Assembly (NCBI GenBank): GCA_031279215.1
Contig: JAITIZ010000239.1
Location: 1-32,380 of the forward strand
Reading direction: 5' to 3'
DNA: 32,380 bases
Origin: Planctomycetaceae bacterium
GTDB lineage: Bacteria; Planctomycetota; Planctomycetia; Pirellulales; Thermoguttaceae
In this document: positions 3,527 through 27,839 of the stretch, piece after piece
How the letters are laid out: every line of letters starts with the position of its first letter
How positions within the stretch are numbered: the first letter of the stretch is position 1
The notes under the pieces: generated by a model
Seen by the model: only the letters and a program-made list of their open reading frames with translations
Databases searched by the model: none
Told to the model about the DNA's origin: nothing
Translations under genes and position numbers: made by a program

Positions 3527-3673
3527 TATACTCATTGTACTTTAAAATTCTGTTTTATAAGATTAGAATTTTTGTATTCTTTATTTAAAAATCCTGTAAA
3601 TTCTGTTTATTCTGTCAAAATCCGTTGATCTTGTCAAAAAACGAAAACCGAATTGTCAAGTGTGATGAGTATA
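3527..3673. repeat. 147 bp intergenic element, TATACTCAT ends (copy 1)
   Basis: The element begins TATACTCATT and ends with the complementary ATGAGTATA. An inverted copy of the same 147 bp length lies at 11510-11656, with over 90% of positions matching by eye. Inside are repeated words of the type AATCCTGTAAATTCTGTTTAT. There is no ORF. It sits between two convergent genes. Confidence 0.85.
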
Positions 3674-3767: not shown

Positions 3768-4058
3768 GTAGAGATGCAATGTATTACGTAACTGTCTATT
3801 TTTGACATTTTTGTTTTAATTTTTTTTAACACGAAACACACAAAATGACACGAAACATACGAAAAAATTTTTTGTTATCCTTTTCGTATAATTTTTGTGT
3901 CGTTAGTGAAGTTTCGTGTATTTCGTGTTCAAAATAAACGGATACCTTTTGACGGGATTTTTAAATAAAAGACACAAAAATTCCGTTCTTATAAAACCGA
4001 ATTTTAATACGAGATGAGTATATAATAAAATAGACAGTTACTGTATTACGTCTCTACG
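3768..4058. repeat. 291 bp element with terminal inverted repeats, GTAACTGTCTATTTT family
   Basis: The left end reads GTAGAGA, a short variable stretch and then GTAACTGTCTATTTT (3788-3802). The right end reads AAAATAGACAGTTAC (4027-4041), a variable stretch and then TCTCTAC (to 4058), which is the inverted complement. The interior has AACACGAAACACACAAAA and TTTCGTGTATTTCGTG blocks that face each other. A related copy in opposite orientation lies at 21499-21760. There is no coding potential, so this is probably a MITE-like or structured intergenic element. Confidence 0.75.
3959..4022. repeat. Partial copy of the 147 bp element
   Basis: The segment running from ATAAAAGACACAAAAATTCC through ATAAAACCGAATTTTAA to GATGAGTATA matches one half of the element at 11510-11656 (about 11595-11656), in the same orientation. 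It lies inside the inverted-repeat element at 3768-4058. Confidence 0.65.
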
Positions 4059-7778: not shown

Positions 7779-7982
7779 GGGTAACTTCTAAAAACTAATA
7801 TTAGGAGGAACGCAGGCGTCTCGCCTGCCCTGTTTTTTACAAAAAACTCCTAAAAATGCGGTCGAGACGACCGCGTTCCTTCTAAAAACTCATTTTTTTA
7901 GGAACGCAGGCATCTCGCCTGCACTTTTTATAGGCAATGTGCAGTCGAGACGACTGCGTTCCTGATGTTTTTAGAAGTTCCC
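7779..7982. repeat. 204 bp element with terminal inverted repeats and four GCAGGCG-type hairpins
   Basis: The ends are GGGTAACTTCTAAAAAC and GTTTTTAGAAGTTCCC, near-perfect inverted complements. The interior has two tandem halves. Each holds a hairpin of the form AGGAACGCAGGCGTCTCGCC (7-base arms GCAGGCG/CGCCTGC around TCT) and its mirror GCGGTCGAGACGACCGC followed by GTTCCT. No ORF is present. The rest of the gap 7483-8084 is AT-rich and shows nothing else recognisable except the 30 bp repeat at 8043-8072. Confidence 0.8.
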
Positions 7983-8084: not shown

Positions 8085-9392
8085 TCAGGGTTTTTGATTT
8101 GTTGTAACGGTTCGGACTTCGTCCGGTGTGAGAAAACCGTCTCCATTTTTGTCCAGCCGCCCGAATATCCCTAACGCCGGAACCGAAAGTGTTGGCGCAA
8201 ATTCTTTTAACGAAACCTGACCATCGCCATCCTGATCACGGAGCAAAAACCAAACCGGAACTCCATGAAGCGTCTCCGGTGCCGTATCGTATTTTCTAAC
8301 CGCAGGAGCCAACCGGTTCGCAATAATTTCCGCATAAACCTCGTCATCAATCGGTGTTTCATCCTTTTCCATCGCTTCCTCCGTAAGATCGGTTACAGAA
8401 GGAACCTCCGCCCGATTAACATCTGTTCCGTCTGCTTTTTCCAAATTTGTTGTTACAGGCGGTTCTGGAATCGGCAAAAACGGTTTGAATAACTGAAATT
8501 GCGAAGAAATCAGTTTCGGTTGAAAATACTGTTCAGGAGGTTGGGGATGATAAATTGTTCGTCCTTTTCCGTAAACCGCTATGAAACGAATCAATTCTTC
8601 TATTGTAATTTCACGATCACCATCTAAATCAATTGATTGCGGAGTACCCGGCAGTTTTTTCCATTCCTCCGACTGGAGAATACCATCCATGTTCTGATCG
8701 TAATGTTGTATAAATTGCATTACATAACGAATTATTTTACCGGAAACCGGCGGTACCATTGTGTTTCGTTCCAACAGATCAGGGATATTGTCGTCGTCGA
8801 TTGCCGACACGGAACGCTTTATCTCCCAAAGGGCCGGACTCGTTCCGCCCAATAACGTATCAGCAGCATCGGGAACCGCAGAATTTTCTGTTTTAAAAAT
8901 CTCTTGAGGAAGTTTAGAACGGGAACGGGTTGGATGAATTCCTTTTTTCCGTACCGGACGTTCCTCCAATCCTTTTTCTTTAGAAGTATTCTCGGCTTCC
9001 GAACCTTTTTCTTTGGAAGTATTCTCGGTTTCCGAACCTTTTTCTTTGGGAGTATTCTCGGCTTCTGAACCTTTTTCTTTGGGAGTATTCTCGGCTTCTG
9101 AATCTTTTTCTTTGGGAGTATTCTCGGTTTCTGAATCTTTTTCTTTGGAAGTATTCTCGGCTTCCGAATCTTTTTCTTTGGAAGTATTCTCGGTTTCCGA
9201 ATCTTTTTCTTTGGGAGTATTCTCGGTTTCCGAATCTTTTTCTTTGGGAGTATTCTCGTCTTCCGCAATTGTTACGGTGTTTTCCGGTTTGGGCGGTTCC
9301 TGTTCAGGCGGCAAAAGTTCTTCCGCTTTGATAACCAAAGATAATATCGTATAAAAAAACAGAACCGAAAAAAACAGAATTATTCTTTTCAT
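8085..9392 (-). CDS. Secreted EF-hand protein with nine 11-residue repeats
   Basis: 435 residues. The N-terminus (Lys-Arg followed by a hydrophobic core at 4-21, then KAEE) is a signal peptide. Residues 46-144 are nine tandem copies of an 11-residue unit, ENTPKEKDSET and variants, highly charged and surely disordered. Four calcium-binding EF-hand loops follow: DQNMDGILQSEE (232-243), DLDGDREITIEE (255-266), DQDGDGQVSLKE (386-397) and DKNGDGFLTPDE (414-425). They are arranged as two pairs separated by a Pro-rich linker of about 120 residues. Position 12 is Glu in all four loops, so calcium binding is likely. The protein is probably extracytoplasmic; secreted EF-hand proteins are common in planctomycetes, and their roles are mostly unknown. 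It starts 26 bases after the stop of the diguanylate cyclase gene upstream, so the two probably form an operon. Confidence 0.85.
   Translation of the reverse strand: MKRIILFFSVLFFYTILSLVIKAEELLPPEQEPPKPENTVTIAEDENTPKEKDSETENTPKEKDSETENTSKEKDSEAENTSKEKDSETENTPKEKDSEAENTPKEKGSEAENTPKEKGSETENTSKEKGSEAENTSKEKGLEERPVRKKGIHPTRSRSKLPQEIFKTENSAVPDAADTLLGGTSPALWEIKRSVSAIDDDNIPDLLERNTMVPPVSGKIIRYVMQFIQHYDQNMDGILQSEEWKKLPGTPQSIDLDGDREITIEELIRFIAVYGKGRTIYHPQPPEQYFQPKLISSQFQLFKPFLPIPEPPVTTNLEKADGTDVNRAEVPSVTDLTEEAMEKDETPIDDEVYAEIIANRLAPAVRKYDTAPETLHGVPVWFLLRDQDGDGQVSLKEFAPTLSVPALGIFGRLDKNGDGFLTPDEVRTVTTNQKP
8961..9257 (-). repeat. Nine tandem 33 bp units, coding
   Basis: The repeat region of the EF-hand protein: nine 33 bp units encoding ENTPKEKDSET-type blocks. 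Units vary only at Pro/Ser, Asp/Gly and Thr/Ala positions, which suggests recent duplication or homogenisation. Confidence 0.92.
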
Positions 9393-11074: not shown

Positions 11075-11365
11075 AACAATACCTTCGATAAAAAAGAATA
11101 GACAGCATCACGTTAATCAGTGATTTTCAAGTTACCGGTTTTCTCAAAAAATGTTTTAGTATGGAAAAACCAACCCAACAATTCAACCCGATAAAAACAA
11201 AATACCAGTGTATTATAATTAAAGCCAAATAGAAAATCAATAACACTTTAATACAGTGTTACTGTCGATGTTACTGTCGATAGATATATCACAGAGTTAT
11301 GATTACGTTATTTGTGAGAGTTGTTATACTGTATCTTGTAATATGTAATAATTGGTTCTTTTAGT

Positions 11366-11429
11366 AGGAACACGGGCGTCTCGCCCGCAATAATGGTAAT
11401 TTCGTGCAGGCGGGAACACCGGCGTTCCT
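11366..11429. repeat. GGGCG-TCT-CGCCC hairpin element
   Basis: AGGAACACGGGCGTCTCGCC and a mirrored end GGCGTTCCT enclose about 20 bases. It is related to the hairpin units of the element at 7779-7982. Confidence 0.65.
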
Positions 11430-11509: not shown

Positions 11510-11656
11510 TATACTCATCACACTTGATAATTCGGTTTTCGTTTTTTGACAAGATCAACAGATTGGGACAGGATAAACAGAATTTACAGGATTTGTAAAT
11601 AAAGAATACAAAAATTCTACTCTTATAAAACCGAATTTTAAAGTACAATGAGTATA
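11510..11656. repeat. 147 bp intergenic element, TATACTCAT ends (copy 2)
   Basis: Inverted relative to copy 1 at 3527-3673 and of identical length. It begins TATACTCATC and ends ATGAGTATA. The rest of the gap 11075-11712 is AT-rich and holds the palindrome AACAC...GTGTT (11242-11262), a doubled GTTACTGTCGAT next to it, and the hairpin element at 11366. No gene is evident. Confidence 0.85.
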
Positions 11657-12426: not shown

Positions 12427-12452
12427 TCCTAAAATGAAAGGTTAATTTTCTG

Positions 12453-12871
12453 GTAATATATCAGTGAAATAATTTTTTTGGTCCTATTTTCGCGGTATTT
12501 CCTTAATCTCTTATGTTTTCTTAGTCCCGCAGGGACGAGATGTGCATAACCGTAGGTGTAGCGAAGCGCAACCTACGGATCAGAACCTCATCTCCTTTCA
12601 AAGCCCCGCACGGGGCGAAATAATAGTTGATAGTTGAGAGTTGATAGTGGATAGTGTCGCAAGCGGATTACTACTTAAACGACAATAATTCCGCATGCGA
12701 CACTATCAACTATCCACTATCAACTCTTAACTATTATCTCGCCCTTGCAGGGCTTTTGGAAAATGGGGGAGTTCCTACTCCGGCGGTTGCGCTTCGCTTC
12801 ACCGCCGGTTATGCAGTTCACACCCCTAGCGGGGTTAAGAGCGAAAAATAAAAATTCCACTGATATATTAC
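12453..12871. repeat. 419 bp intergenic element, chain of hairpins with GTAATATATCAGTG ends (copy A)
   Basis: The left end GTAATATATCAGTGAAAT and right end ATTCCACTGATATATTAC are inverted complements. Between them is a series of stem-loops: GTCCCGCAGGGAC (12524-12536), CCGTAGGT...ACCTACGG (12550-12578), GCCCCGCACGGGGC (12603-12616), a long hairpin at 12621-12736 built from GTTGATAGT-type words around TGTCGCAAGCGGA, then GCCCTTGCAGGGC, CCGGCGG...CCGCCGG and CCCCTAGCGGGG. A 421 bp copy lies at 27356-27776 in the same orientation. Short frames inside are not believable genes. The remainder of the gap 12427-13020 is AT-rich with a TTTCGTGTATTTCGTGT stretch near 12950. Confidence 0.88.
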
Positions 12872-13020
12872 ATTTTCTGTAATTTTTTTGGTAATATTTC
12901 ATCGGAATATTACAAAAATTCCTTTCTCTCAATTTTCGCATATTCCGCATATTTCGTGTATTTCGTGTATTCTGTGTTTAAAATAACTATTCTACTAAAT
13001 AGTTACAAAATTATATATAG

Positions 13021-13467
13021 TTATGTTTTAAGCGGAGTTGATTGGGGCGGTTGTTCTTTTTTTTTCGGCAAAATGATTTTGAGGGAAATCCAAACAACAA
13101 GGAAAACCGGTAAAAACAAAAGAAGTCCTAACAAAAACATTCCAAGAACAACAGTATTGTCAAGCATTGTCCAGGGAACGACCGGAATACTGTACAAAAT
13201 TCCAATAACTTGCTGTCCCTGCGCCGAAACCAAAATTTCACGCCCAACTTGGTCTGCCAATGGATAAAGCCATGGCGCAAAAAAGGAAATCACCAATGTT
13301 GTCAAAATACCAATAACAATATTAGCATGAGACAAAAAAAAGAAAATCGCAAACACCACAAATAAAAGATTTGTTTTTGGAAGAAGTCCAAGTAAAACTC
13401 CAAATGTGATTCCGAGAGCAATTTCGCGAGGTCCAAAACGTCCTATGAATGTGTCCATGTGTTTCAT
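13021..13467 (-). CDS. Small integral membrane protein, DUF2062/TIGR03546-like
   Basis: 148 residues with an N-terminal GPREIALGITFGVLLGLLPK segment, which resembles the start of DUF2062/TIGR03546 family proteins (Pro, Ala-hydrophobic-Gly, then LP), followed by about four hydrophobic segments (about 14-30, 33-62, 85-103, 106-130) and a basic, Pro-rich cytoplasmic tail. It is therefore an inner-membrane protein with a very small soluble part. No catalytic residues stand out and the family has no firm function. The start could be the first ATG (13467) or the second (13458). It lies 20 bases downstream of the dnaA stop on the same strand and is probably co-transcribed with it. The family call is by eye and moderate. 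Confidence 0.7.
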   Translation of the reverse strand: MKHMDTFIGRFGPREIALGITFGVLLGLLPKTNLLFVVFAIFFFLSHANIVIGILTTLVISFFAPWLYPLADQVGREILVSAQGQQVIGILYSIPVVPWTMLDNTVVLGMFLLGLLLFLPVFLVVWISLKIILPKKKEQPPQSTPLKT

Positions 13468-15492: not shown

Positions 15493-15733
15493 GTAATTAT
15501 GTCAGTAGTTGTTTTCATTTTTCCTTCTTAACCCCGTTAGGAGCAACATCGTAGTGGAGAGTTGAGAGTAGATAGTGTCGCAAGCGGAATTATTGCCGTT
15601 TAGGTCGTAATCCGCTTGCGGCACTCTCCACTATCAACTATCATCTCGTCCCTGCGGGATTTAAGAAAACATAAGAGATTAAGGAAATGCCGCGAAAATA
15701 GAACCAAAAAAAATTATTCCACTGATATATTAC
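15493..15733. repeat. Shortened, inverted copy of the hairpin-chain element (copy C)
   Basis: The right end ATTCCACTGATATATTAC (15716-15733) and the sequence before it (GGAAATGCCGCGAAAATAG, TTAAGAAAACATAAGAG, CGTCCCTGCGGGA) are the complement of the left part of copy A. The long hairpin with TGTCGCAAGCGGA is present, but the stretch holding the CCGTAGG, GCCCCGCACGGGGC and CCGGCGG hairpins is missing; the other edge keeps TTAACCCCGTTAGG. A degenerate end GTAATTATGTCAGTAG at 15493 may be the second terminus. Confidence 0.72.
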
Positions 15734-15828: not shown

Positions 15829-16118
15829 GTAATCTATCAGTGGAATTATTGTTTAAGTTTAAAAAGGTCTTCGCCCTGAATTAGTTGATAGTTGAGAGTT
15901 GATAGTGGAAAGTTGAGAGTGGAAAGTGGAAAGTGTTGCAAGCGGATTTTAAGCGGAATACTTGTAAATCGCTTGCGACACTCTCCACTATCAACTCTCA
16001 ACTCTCAACTAATTCAGGGCGTAGGAAAAAGATCATGGCAGAGTAAATCCCTCCGTTAACGACGGGGTTTACCCCGTGAGAGTGATCACAAAATAAAAAT
16101 TCTACAAATATATTACCA
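15829..16118. repeat. 290 bp variant of the hairpin-chain element (copy D)
   Basis: It starts GTAATCTATCAGTGGAAT and ends ATTCTACAAATATATTAC. The core 15873-16020 is one very long imperfect hairpin: GCCCTGAATTAGTTGATAG at one side and its complement ending CTAATTCAGGGC at the other, with TTGCAAGCGGA near the tip. An ACGGGGTTTACCCCGT hairpin follows. It lies just upstream of cca. Between copies C and D (15734-15828) is an AT-rich stretch with AATCTGCGTAATCTGCGGAC. Confidence 0.75.
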
Positions 16119-21905: not shown

Positions 21906-23873
21906 ATGTTCATGACGGGTTCAAAGATGCCCCGGCACAAAAGAAATCGTTTGAAAACAATCCTCGAAATTATTGGGGTTTTCGCGGTTTTTTATATTTT
22001 TGGTGCGTGGACGGTTCCTGATTCGAATGAACCGTATTATATTGGCAAGGCGATTCATTTTTGGAATCCTGATTGGATTCCGAATGATTCTTTTTTGGAA
22101 AGCAAAGATTCACATTGGACATTTTATGTTGTTTTTGGTTGGTTATCCTTTTTTCTTTCACCGGCCGCAATGGCATGGGCGGGACGTTTTCTGACTTGGG
22201 GATTACTTGCTTGGAGTTGGCAACGGCTTAGTTTTACGTTGGTTCCGGTTCGTTGGGCGGCAATTCCTACTGCTTTGGCATTAGCTTATTATGTTGATTC
22301 GTTTCATGCTGCCGGAGAATGGATTCTTGGCGGTGTTGAGGGAAAATCATTTGCTTTTCCGTTTGTCTTTCTCGGGCTCGAATCAATGCTTCGCGGACGT
22401 TGGCATCGAACCTGGATTTTTCTCGGAACAGCTTCGGCATTCCATGTTCTGGTTGGCGGCTGGTCTGTTTTGGCTGCCGGATTTGTCTGGTTCGCCGATT
22501 ACCGCAACACAATTTTTTCACGCCGTTTCGTTATTCCGTGGGGATTTTTTATTGGGGGATTTTTGTCCTTATTCGGATTGATTCCGGCGTTGCTGCTCGA
22601 TTACGGAATTTCACCGGAAACAGTTCGGGAAGCTCATCGGATTTACGTTTTTGAACGGTTGTATCATCATTTGCTGCCGTATCAATTCCCTTGGACTTCT
22701 CTTGTTCGTTTTGTGTTACTGGCAACAGTCTGGGTTACGATTTGCCGTTTCGGTCAGCACAAAAACCAACGGCAACAACGTTTCGACTCTTTCATTTGGG
22801 GAACTTTAATTCTGTTCCTGATCGGAATTTTAACCGCCTACGGACTTCAGAACAACCAGATTCTGACTGCGGAAATCCTTCGATTTTATTGGTTTCGGCT
22901 TTCTGATATTTTTGTTCCGGCTGGAATTGCGGTTGGTGCTCTTCGGCATTTTTTAACAACATTGCAAAAACTCCGAAAAATTCAAGCGGTTCAAAGTGTT
23001 CCGTGTGTTCAAAATATTCAAAGCGTTCAAAGTGTTCAAAGTATTCAAAACGTTCAAAGTATTCAAAACGTTCAAAGTGTTCAAAAATTCCAGAGTAAGA
23101 AATACGGAGTTTATTTTCTACCGATTTCCGGTTGGTTGATTTTGTTTGGGGTTCCGTTTTGTGTTTATCTATTTTTCGATACACTCATTTTCGGTTACCG
23201 AATTTATTTTTCCAATACGGTTGCCGAATCCGGGATTCCTTGGGCGTTGACTCTGTTGGTTTGTTGGGGATTGCTTGTGTTTGCGAAAAGATTTTTGCGT
23301 AACAGGACAAATTTCGAAACATTTCAGGTTTGGGGATTGCTTGGACTTTATGCGGTTATTTTGTTTTACGCTCCGCTCGATTCCCTCAAAACACTGGGCG
23401 ATGCTCGAACTTACAAGGCTTATTCACGAATTGAGCCGGGACGTCCTTATATTGCTTATCATTGGATTGATGCTTGCCGATGGATTGCCGATCCGCAAAA
23501 TACTCCCCGAACCGCAAAATTTTGGATTCCCCGCGAAGGAACTACTTTCAAATGGCATGCGCGGCGAAGTGATATTGGAACATGGAAAAATATTCCCCAA
23601 GACGCCGAAGGAATTGTCCGCTGGCAACAGATGATGCACGACCTTTTTTATTACCGCAACGAAAAAGGGCAGCTTTGTGATGACCGATCATTAACGATTT
23701 TACTTTGGTGGAAAACAGACGAAGAGATAGAACAATTACGGCTTCGATACGGATTTGAATATATTCTTTGTTCCGCTTACCCTGAATTATCGCATCATAA
23801 AACATTTCAGGTTGTTTACGCCAATGAATTTTATAAAGTTTACCGGATTTTGCCGTTCCATGAAGTGAAATAG
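21906..23873 (+). CDS. Polytopic membrane protein, DUF6798-like
   Basis: 655 residues with about 11-12 hydrophobic segments spread from residue 20 to about 490, then a soluble C-terminal domain of about 160 residues (from RIEPGRPYIAYHWIDACRWI to the end). The first extracytoplasmic loop (PDSNEPYYIGKAIHFWNPDW) with its Asp, Asn and Glu residues, followed by many membrane spans and a late soluble domain, recalls GT-C-type lipid-linked sugar transferases and planctomycetal DUF6798 proteins. That match is from memory and moderate. A short Val-Gln-Ser/Ile-Gln-Asn repeat (22981-23090, 9 bp units) lies in a cytoplasmic or periplasmic loop near residue 375. Start ATG at 21906 with GGAAAG before it; ATGs at 21912 and 21927 are alternatives. 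Neighbours do not reveal its role. Confidence 0.75.
   Translation: MFMTGSKMPRHKRNRLKTILEIIGVFAVFYIFGAWTVPDSNEPYYIGKAIHFWNPDWIPNDSFLESKDSHWTFYVVFGWLSFFLSPAAMAWAGRFLTWGLLAWSWQRLSFTLVPVRWAAIPTALALAYYVDSFHAAGEWILGGVEGKSFAFPFVFLGLESMLRGRWHRTWIFLGTASAFHVLVGGWSVLAAGFVWFADYRNTIFSRRFVIPWGFFIGGFLSLFGLIPALLLDYGISPETVREAHRIYVFERLYHHLLPYQFPWTSLVRFVLLATVWVTICRFGQHKNQRQQRFDSFIWGTLILFLIGILTAYGLQNNQILTAEILRFYWFRLSDIFVPAGIAVGALRHFLTTLQKLRKIQAVQSVPCVQNIQSVQSVQSIQNVQSIQNVQSVQKFQSKKYGVYFLPISGWLILFGVPFCVYLFFDTLIFGYRIYFSNTVAESGIPWALTLLVCWGLLVFAKRFLRNRTNFETFQVWGLLGLYAVILFYAPLDSLKTLGDARTYKAYSRIEPGRPYIAYHWIDACRWIADPQNTPRTAKFWIPREGTTFKWHARRSDIGTWKNIPQDAEGIVRWQQMMHDLFYYRNEKGQLCDDRSLTILLWWKTDEEIEQLRLRYGFEYILCSAYPELSHHKTFQVVYANEFYKVYRILPFHEVK
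22981..23090 (+). repeat. Tandem 9 bp words, coding
   Basis: Around ten copies of a nine-base word (TTCAAAGTG/TTCAAAATA types) encode a Val-Gln-Ser/Ile-Gln-Asn loop in the membrane protein. Confidence 0.85.
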
Positions 23874-27255: not shown

Positions 27256-27355
27256 TATCTATTTCAGTAACAATTCTATTTGTTTATCATCCGGTATTAT
27301 TCTATGGAATTTTACGGAAAATATTATTTTAACAAAATTCTTAATTGATTAAACG

Positions 27356-27776
27356 GTAATCTATCAGTGGAATTTTTGTTTTTTGGTTCTATTTTCGTGA
27401 AATTTCCTTAAATCTCTTAATGTTTTCTTAGTCCCGCAGGGACGAGATGTGCATAACCGTAGGTTAAGCGTAGCGCAACCTACGGATCAGAACCTCCTCT
27501 CCTTTGTCAAAGCCCCGCACGGGGCGAGATTATTGATAGTTGAGAGTGGAGAGTTGAGAGTGGAGAGTGTCGCAAGCGGAATGATGACCGTTTAGGTAGT
27601 AATCCGCTTGCGAACTATTAACTATTAACTATTCACTATTAACTCGCCCTTGCAGGGCTTTGGGAAAATGGGGGAATTCCTACTCCGGCGGTTGCGCTTC
27701 GCTTCACCGCCGGTTATGCATTTCACCCCCCTAGCGGGGTTAAGAGCAAAAAACAAAAATTTCACTGATGGATTAC
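27356..27776. repeat. 421 bp intergenic element, chain of hairpins with GTAATATATCAGTG ends (copy B)
   Basis: Full-length relative of copy A at 12453-12871, same orientation. The left end is GTAATCTATCAGTGGAAT and the right end TTTCACTGATGGATTAC. All hairpins of copy A are present (GTCCCGCAGGGAC, CCGTAGG/CCTACGG, GCCCCGCACGGGGC, the long GTTGAGAGTGGAGAG hairpin, GCCCTTGCAGGGC, CCGGCGG/CCGCCGG, CCCCTAGCGGGG). Loops and the long stem differ between copies while the stems remain paired. It occupies most of the gap 27256-27839. Confidence 0.88.
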
Positions 27777-27839
27777 ATTAAACGTCAAATGATGAATACA
27801 AAAAATATTACAAATAAATTATTCTCTTAACCGAAGAAT

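Follow-up and report, generated by a model that had tools for sequence, protein, structure and literature searches.

A probable IS66-derived MITE family with a modular palindromic interior in a planctomycete genome

Introduction

What is a gene-less run of hairpins about 420 bp long, and why does it stand twice between the genes of one short stretch of bacterial DNA? The stretch concerned (the window) is the 32,380 nucleotides of contig JAITIZ010000239.1 from a Planctomycetaceae bacterium (assembly GCA_031279215.1), a 716-contig draft of 5.46 Mb and 91% completeness in which the window is contig 345. A sequence-only reading had described two copies with common ends and named several candidates, among them a MITE moved in trans and a structured RNA. 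Here we consider these possibilities against the rest of the genome, other members of the genus and further genomes of the phylum. The element is very probably a non-autonomous transposon (MITE) of the IS66 family, with a modular palindromic interior and a heptamer-repeat hairpin, and most likely selfish.

The two window copies

The two hairpin-rich copies of about 420 bp lie at 12453-12871 and 27356-27776 as first described, and the common ends reported for them are present in both with 0-3 substitutions from the proposed consensus. Copy 1 begins with GTAATATATCAGTGAAAT and ends with ATTCCACTGATATATTAC, copy 2 has GTAATCTATCAGTGGAAT and ATTTCACTGATGGATTAC, and the two are 85% identical over their full length. 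Each copy is bordered by a perfect 8-bp direct duplication, ATTTTCTG for copy 1 and ATTAAACG for copy 2, which the earlier account did not include. At least two further copies, more degraded, lie at about 15493-15733 and 15829-16116. Copy 1 is 26 bp upstream of a start codon. The features are as follows.

12445..12452, no strand: left 8-bp target-site duplication of copy 1, ATTTTCTG (sequence reading and script)
12453..12871, + strand: copy 1 of the probable IS66-derived MITE, half types A (left) and B (right)
12453..12470, + strand: left terminal inverted repeat (TIR) of copy 1
12524..12536, + strand: small hairpin h1, GTCCCGCAGGGAC, half A
12550..12578, + strand: larger hairpin h2, CCGTAGG..CCTACGG, half A
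12603..12616, + strand: small hairpin h3, GCCCCGCACGGGGC, half A
12617..12740, + strand: central heptamer-repeat hairpin of copy 1, at the apex of the GAGATTAT..ATAATCTC palindrome; TTGATAG/TTGAGAG/TGGATAG-type units in the arms, GCGG..CCGC in the core
12741..12753, + strand: small hairpin h5, GCCCTTGCAGGGC, half B
12780..12808, + strand: larger hairpin h6, CCGGCGG..CCGCCGG, half B
12823..12834, + strand: small hairpin h7, CCCCTAGCGGGG, half B
12854..12871, - strand: right TIR of copy 1
12872..12879, no strand: right 8-bp target-site duplication of copy 1, ATTTTCTG
15493..15733, + strand: degraded, deleted copy with a degenerate left end and an intact right TIR (15716-15733); heptamer hairpin at 15555-15637, duplication not recognisable
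15829..16116, + strand: another half-type combination, C left and D-like right; heptamer hairpin at 15885-16008 between CGCCCTGAA and TTCAGGGCG, without a duplication
27348..27355, no strand: left 8-bp target-site duplication of copy 2, ATTAAACG
27356..27776, + strand: copy 2 of the probable MITE, A left and B right, central-hairpin loop inverted relative to copy 1
27533..27642, + strand: central heptamer hairpin of copy 2
27777..27784, no strand: right 8-bp target-site duplication of copy 2, ATTAAACG

Each window copy has a much more stable fold than its shuffled versions (z = -18.5 and -12.7). The seven stem-loops in series that had been proposed exist as local hairpins in an alternative fold, while at minimum energy the sequence folds into a single long nested hairpin. 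The inverted loop of the central hairpin, as judged relative to the element ends, spans 12632-12725 in copy 1 and 27545-27612 in copy 2. Neither element contains an open reading frame of 100 aa or more, and the absence of a transposase noted earlier holds inside them; if the element is a MITE, the enzyme is to be expected outside the window, elsewhere in the genome.

Genome-wide family and target duplications

Copies no more numerous than chance would have spoken against the element, and the count was far above that: with up to 2 mismatches the 18-bp TIR has 1,095 matches in the 5.46 Mb, about 550 pairs' worth with all interior types pooled, compared with 0 for the reversed pattern used as a control. 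Sampled stretches comprised selected contigs and three blocks of consecutive contig numbers, chosen irrespective of content. The 60 contigs chosen by number in this way (435 kb) hold 85 ends. Of these ends, 24 lie within 600 bp of a contig edge, which is above expectation, and in 17 of the 24 the element interior faces the edge; the family thus breaks the assembly, and its copy numbers are approximate.

Where two ends stood no more than 2.5 kb apart they were treated as a pair. Among 109 such pairs, 16 are flanked by an exact 8-bp duplication (0.58 expected from shuffled partners), and the other lengths tested, from 4 to 12, gave 0-2 exact duplications each. Such an excess at 8 bp is the mark left by a transposase whose cuts are staggered by 8 bp. 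Many elements have no recognisable duplication (59 of 79 with more than one mismatch), for which decay, recombination between copies or mis-assembly of the 716-contig draft could each be the cause. An orthologous empty site for copy 1 was sought in congeners, whose loci are too divergent there for base-for-base alignment; in several of them no intact TIR closely follows the neighbouring dnaA gene.

Elements in the sample measure 119-560 bp. They are short, gene-less and present in many copies, they have TIRs and a target duplication of fixed length, and they have their ends in common with a candidate autonomous element, since transposase reading frames adjoin the same TIR (see below). On these sequence characters the element is a MITE.

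IS66 transposase and shared ends

The search for a transposase gene with the same terminal repeats that had been suggested for this locus located one elsewhere in the genome. Above-cut-off matches to PF03050 (DDE_Tnp_IS66) occur on two contigs, and a protein search found further IS66 transposase fragments. Contigs C241 and C353 of genome G000 and the congeners G015 and G008 have PF03050 reading frames that begin 55-85 bp inward of the same TIR, and on C576 of G000 the same TIR lies just beyond the 3' end of another such frame. Frames beside the TIR match the family with E = 2.6e-24 and 2.2e-37. C353 and G015:C197 have TIRs that agree with the MITE end at all 18 positions. The copy on C241 is about 1.55 kb from end to end, with one open reading frame that has a frame break, and with mutated end(s). 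No intact transposase frame with both matching TIRs was found in the genome, its copies being broken or partial.

The consensus of the MITE TIR, GTAATATATCAGTGGAAT, starts with GTAA like known IS66 ends. ISDge4, a single-ORF member of the ISBst12 group, has the TIR GTAACTGCTCAGCA and an 8-bp repeat (PMC12898284), and ISPa75-type elements start with GTAAGCG (PMC12888890). The GTAA start, the 8-bp duplication and the DDE_Tnp_IS66 frame beside the TIR, outside the window element, all argue for an IS66 origin. The suggestion of a MITE moved in trans thus appears to have been right, given the TIRs, the duplications, the hundreds of copies and a same-TIR IS66 transposase that would act on them in trans. 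No described family had been recognised at first; the ends and the enzyme are of the IS66 kind, whereas the interior bears no resemblance to the IS.

Modular interior

The interior is built of halves. We distinguished 278 half-elements (57 A, 40 B, 32 C, 26 E, 13 D, the rest of smaller types), and the 79 complete elements combine them as A/B, the window type (24), E/E2 (10), C/D (7) and B/B (4), with other mixtures occurring singly. Duplication-bearing members occur in A/B, C/D and E/E2 and as one B/B copy, from which it follows that the mixed forms transpose as units. Halves A and B are homologous and inverted relative to each other, and in corresponding stems both arms have changed (CCGTAGG/CCTACGG in A against CCGGCGG/CCGCCGG in B; GTCCC/GGGAC against ACCCC/GGGGT).

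Some A/B elements of about 190 bp (L172:5631, L185, L195, L157) have their two large hairpins collapsed into one, which in L157 is a mispaired hybrid; this suggests deletion between paralogous stems. Another palindromic repeat, GGCGAAAGGTCGCC(T)ACCTTG, was seen at L286, L325 and L324 (G014) and in one half-element cluster, and in G014 heptamer hairpins are nested in it.

Heptamer-repeat hairpin

The central heptamer hairpin, in which runs of seven-base units form the arms around a conserved core, is present in 40 of the 79 elements. Within the genus, 17 of 21 genomes carry it; G010 is among these and lacks the TIR altogether, and G012, with only 20 TIR ends, has it in abundance. The heptamer hairpin is therefore a separate repeat that also spreads without IS66 ends. 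Heptamer repeats had been expected to be common in planctomycetes, and none were found in the other 293 genomes of the phylum that were sampled.

How the hairpin is seated can be seen by comparing sites. An unfilled site in G012 reads GCCCCGCAYGGGGC-GAGATTAT(14-nt loop)ATAATCTC-GCCCTTGCAGGGC, with close variants at loci in G017 and G008, and the filled site reads GAGATTATTGATAG...CTATTATCTC, so that the hairpin occupies the loop of a small GAGATTAT...ATAATCTC palindrome. For solo hairpins, palindrome-loop targeting was considered as a general rule and set aside, as flank complementarity (mean 3.90, permuted 3.35, sd 0.31) did not significantly exceed permutation; loop seating is thus established for nested copies only.

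Solo hairpins mostly start with TAG and end with CTA, and have no TIR and no evident duplication. When frames of about 150 or more codons were scored in the home genome and its congeners, 14 of 31 solo hairpins lay no more than 30 nt after a stop codon (about 10% expected, p about 1e-6). The hairpins bounded by IS66 ends showed no significant enrichment near gene ends (5/26 and 2/7). Either insertion preference or selection could account for the solo placement. When one solo locus was compared with its congeners, the genes corresponded as far as the stop codon, after which the congeners have no such hairpin, two of them keeping only a heptamer-like remnant. At L140:9523-9636, L274:522-618 and L224:4910-4990 a solo hairpin overlaps the stop codon of the upstream gene, and in L224, from a congener, the homologue of the window gene at 13021-13467 ends in heptamer-encoded residues. 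A Y1/RAYT transposase was considered as the mobiliser and rejected: none of the three PF01797 loci is flanked by the hairpins, with heptamers near one of them, about 1 kb off.

Pairing and alternative explanations

Conserved pairing between the two window copies had been taken as a sign of selection on RNA or single-stranded DNA structure, and a covariance analysis was called for. Pair counts were taken over 11 A/B copies, all full or nearly so. For the long hairpin they were not above shuffles, and the local hairpins gave a small excess (6 pairs changed on both sides, 3.5 expected), several of them being nearly invariant among A/B copies. In the heptamer stem, variable pairs are mispaired in about half of the copies (columns 204/330: UA 3, GC 1, other 6). 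Among 47 clean heptamer hairpins the arms correlate for the TTAATAG class only (r = 0.63), and the most variable unit positions give arm-to-arm values of r = 0.12-0.20, inside permutation limits. A crude score for general arm-to-arm matching did beat permutation, on a set that held false cores, and was discarded. The arms stay complementary because a small common stock of units makes up both of them, not through compensated changes; with variable stem positions unpaired about as often as chance gives, the case for selection on structure finds no support within the family.

A structured RNA or single-stranded DNA signal, with folding under selection and transposition incidental, is accordingly an improbable account of the element. 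Its fold is extremely stable, several local hairpins hardly vary among A/B copies, and between halves A and B corresponding stems have undergone compensatory changes; descent alone, however, is expected to leave invariant stems among recent copies, and since A and B are two lineages their differences represent very few independent events. Covariation does not rise above shuffles in the long hairpin and is slight in the local ones, the heptamer arms vary independently at their most variable positions, and an Rfam search returned no curated family at gathering score. There is more room for the view that the hairpins are kept as bidirectional terminators or stabilisers of mRNA 3' ends, in the manner of REP/BIME sequences, and that this explains their spread; we hold it possible but doubtful. 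The enrichment of solo hairpins past gene ends and the stop codons inside or just before a hairpin favour it, while the IS66-bounded copies lack a significant enrichment, copy 1 stands ahead of a start codon, and insertion preference or purifying selection could produce the same placement. It is hardly credible that the copies are what is left of a larger mobile element, or a phage or plasmid repeat, amplified by assembly artefacts. The assembly is a draft in which many contigs end inside repeats, and one contig end is palindromic, but the window copies lie well within their 32-kb contig and each has unique flanks and a perfect duplication, the TIRs are abundant across many independent genomes, and phage and plasmid collections gave no match to the element.

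Proposed origin and spread

We therefore return to the IS66-derived MITE. An IS66-type transposase from an IS of about 1.5 kb would recognise the common TIR GTAATATATCAGTGGAAT and, acting in trans, insert the element with an 8-bp duplication. The interior consists of palindromic cassettes, each at the apex of the preceding one. Recombination or template switching where palindromes are shared has probably shuffled the outer half-cassettes A-F, and the heptamer hairpin presumably enters the loop of an older palindrome as DNA. The MITE would be tolerated between genes, most likely as selfish DNA, and its hairpins may incidentally affect transcript ends. It is conceivable, though we would not favour it, that the heptamer hairpin is a separate mobile palindrome that enters palindrome loops and stop-codon sites without TIR or duplication and has IS66 MITEs as vehicles.

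Distribution among planctomycetes

TIR matches number from 3 to 1,216 in 14 of the 20 congeners and are absent from the other six, and 391 other genomes sampled from the phylum never have more than one match each, the level of the control pattern. The IS66-derived MITE family is a high-copy one, essentially limited to one genus. For comparison, a bacterial MITE typically has 10-20 copies (PMC4596501), and the 711 copies of ERIC in Photorhabdus are cited as a high number in a review (PMC10969869).

Other repeats in the window

A further repeat, AGGAACGCAGGCGTCTCGCCTGC, preceded by CTTCTAAAAACT, is dispersed over several intergenic regions, including 7785-7929 and 11345-11395 of the window, and adjoins a solo hairpin in L266. 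Unrelated to the MITE is an inverted repeat of 147 nt whose arms, at 3527-3673 and 11510-11656, are 7.8 kb apart and 95% complementary, with a partial third copy at 3949-4022. At 8906-9329 a ten-fold 33-bp tandem repeat lies within a gene; the encoded protein shows EF-hand-like motifs (TENTPKEKDSEA-type units). At 22976-23092, 9-bp tandem repeats encode QSVQNVQSIQ-like units in a membrane-protein-like reading frame.

Significance and comparison with known systems

The family is real, large, mobile and of a known kind, and its interior is unusual. With it, IS66, which is not mentioned in the review of MITEs PMC10969869, joins the IS families with very large MITE progeny. One MITE end that ranges from none to over a thousand copies between species of a genus is suited to testing how bursts start and stop. 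Nested palindromes, and a hairpin that travels without IS66 ends, make palindrome growth and spread testable through filled and empty loops.

Within IS66, the family resembles the ISBst12 subgroup (e.g. ISDge4) in its GTAA-start TIR with a TCAG block, its 8-bp target duplication and a DDE_Tnp_IS66 transposase that is apparently the sole reading frame beside the same TIR. By contrast, the window elements lack a transposase, their interior shows no relation to the IS, and the autonomous copies here are broken or partial. Chunjie (Geobacter), QMITE (Coxiella), Correia (Neisseria) and ERIC are likewise short, gene-less and intergenic, with TIRs and duplications, and are hairpin-forming, variable in length and sometimes high in copy (ERIC up to 711) (PMC10969869); the window family is set apart from them by IS66-type ends, by several hairpin half-cassettes that can replace one another, and by the heptamer hairpin nested inside. 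The solo heptamer hairpin is, like the REP/BIME sequences associated with RAYT (Y1), a TIR-less palindromic repeat near gene ends, but it is much longer (about 114 bp) and built of heptamers, and the three Y1 genes of the genome are not flanked by it. The BrickBuilt MITE of Porphyromonas gingivalis likewise contains an inner tract of tandem repeats, which forms long stem-loops; it has IS5-type ends, 23-nt direct repeats and about 19 copies (PMC4596501), whereas the window family has IS66-type ends, 7-nt units in inverted arms and hundreds of copies.
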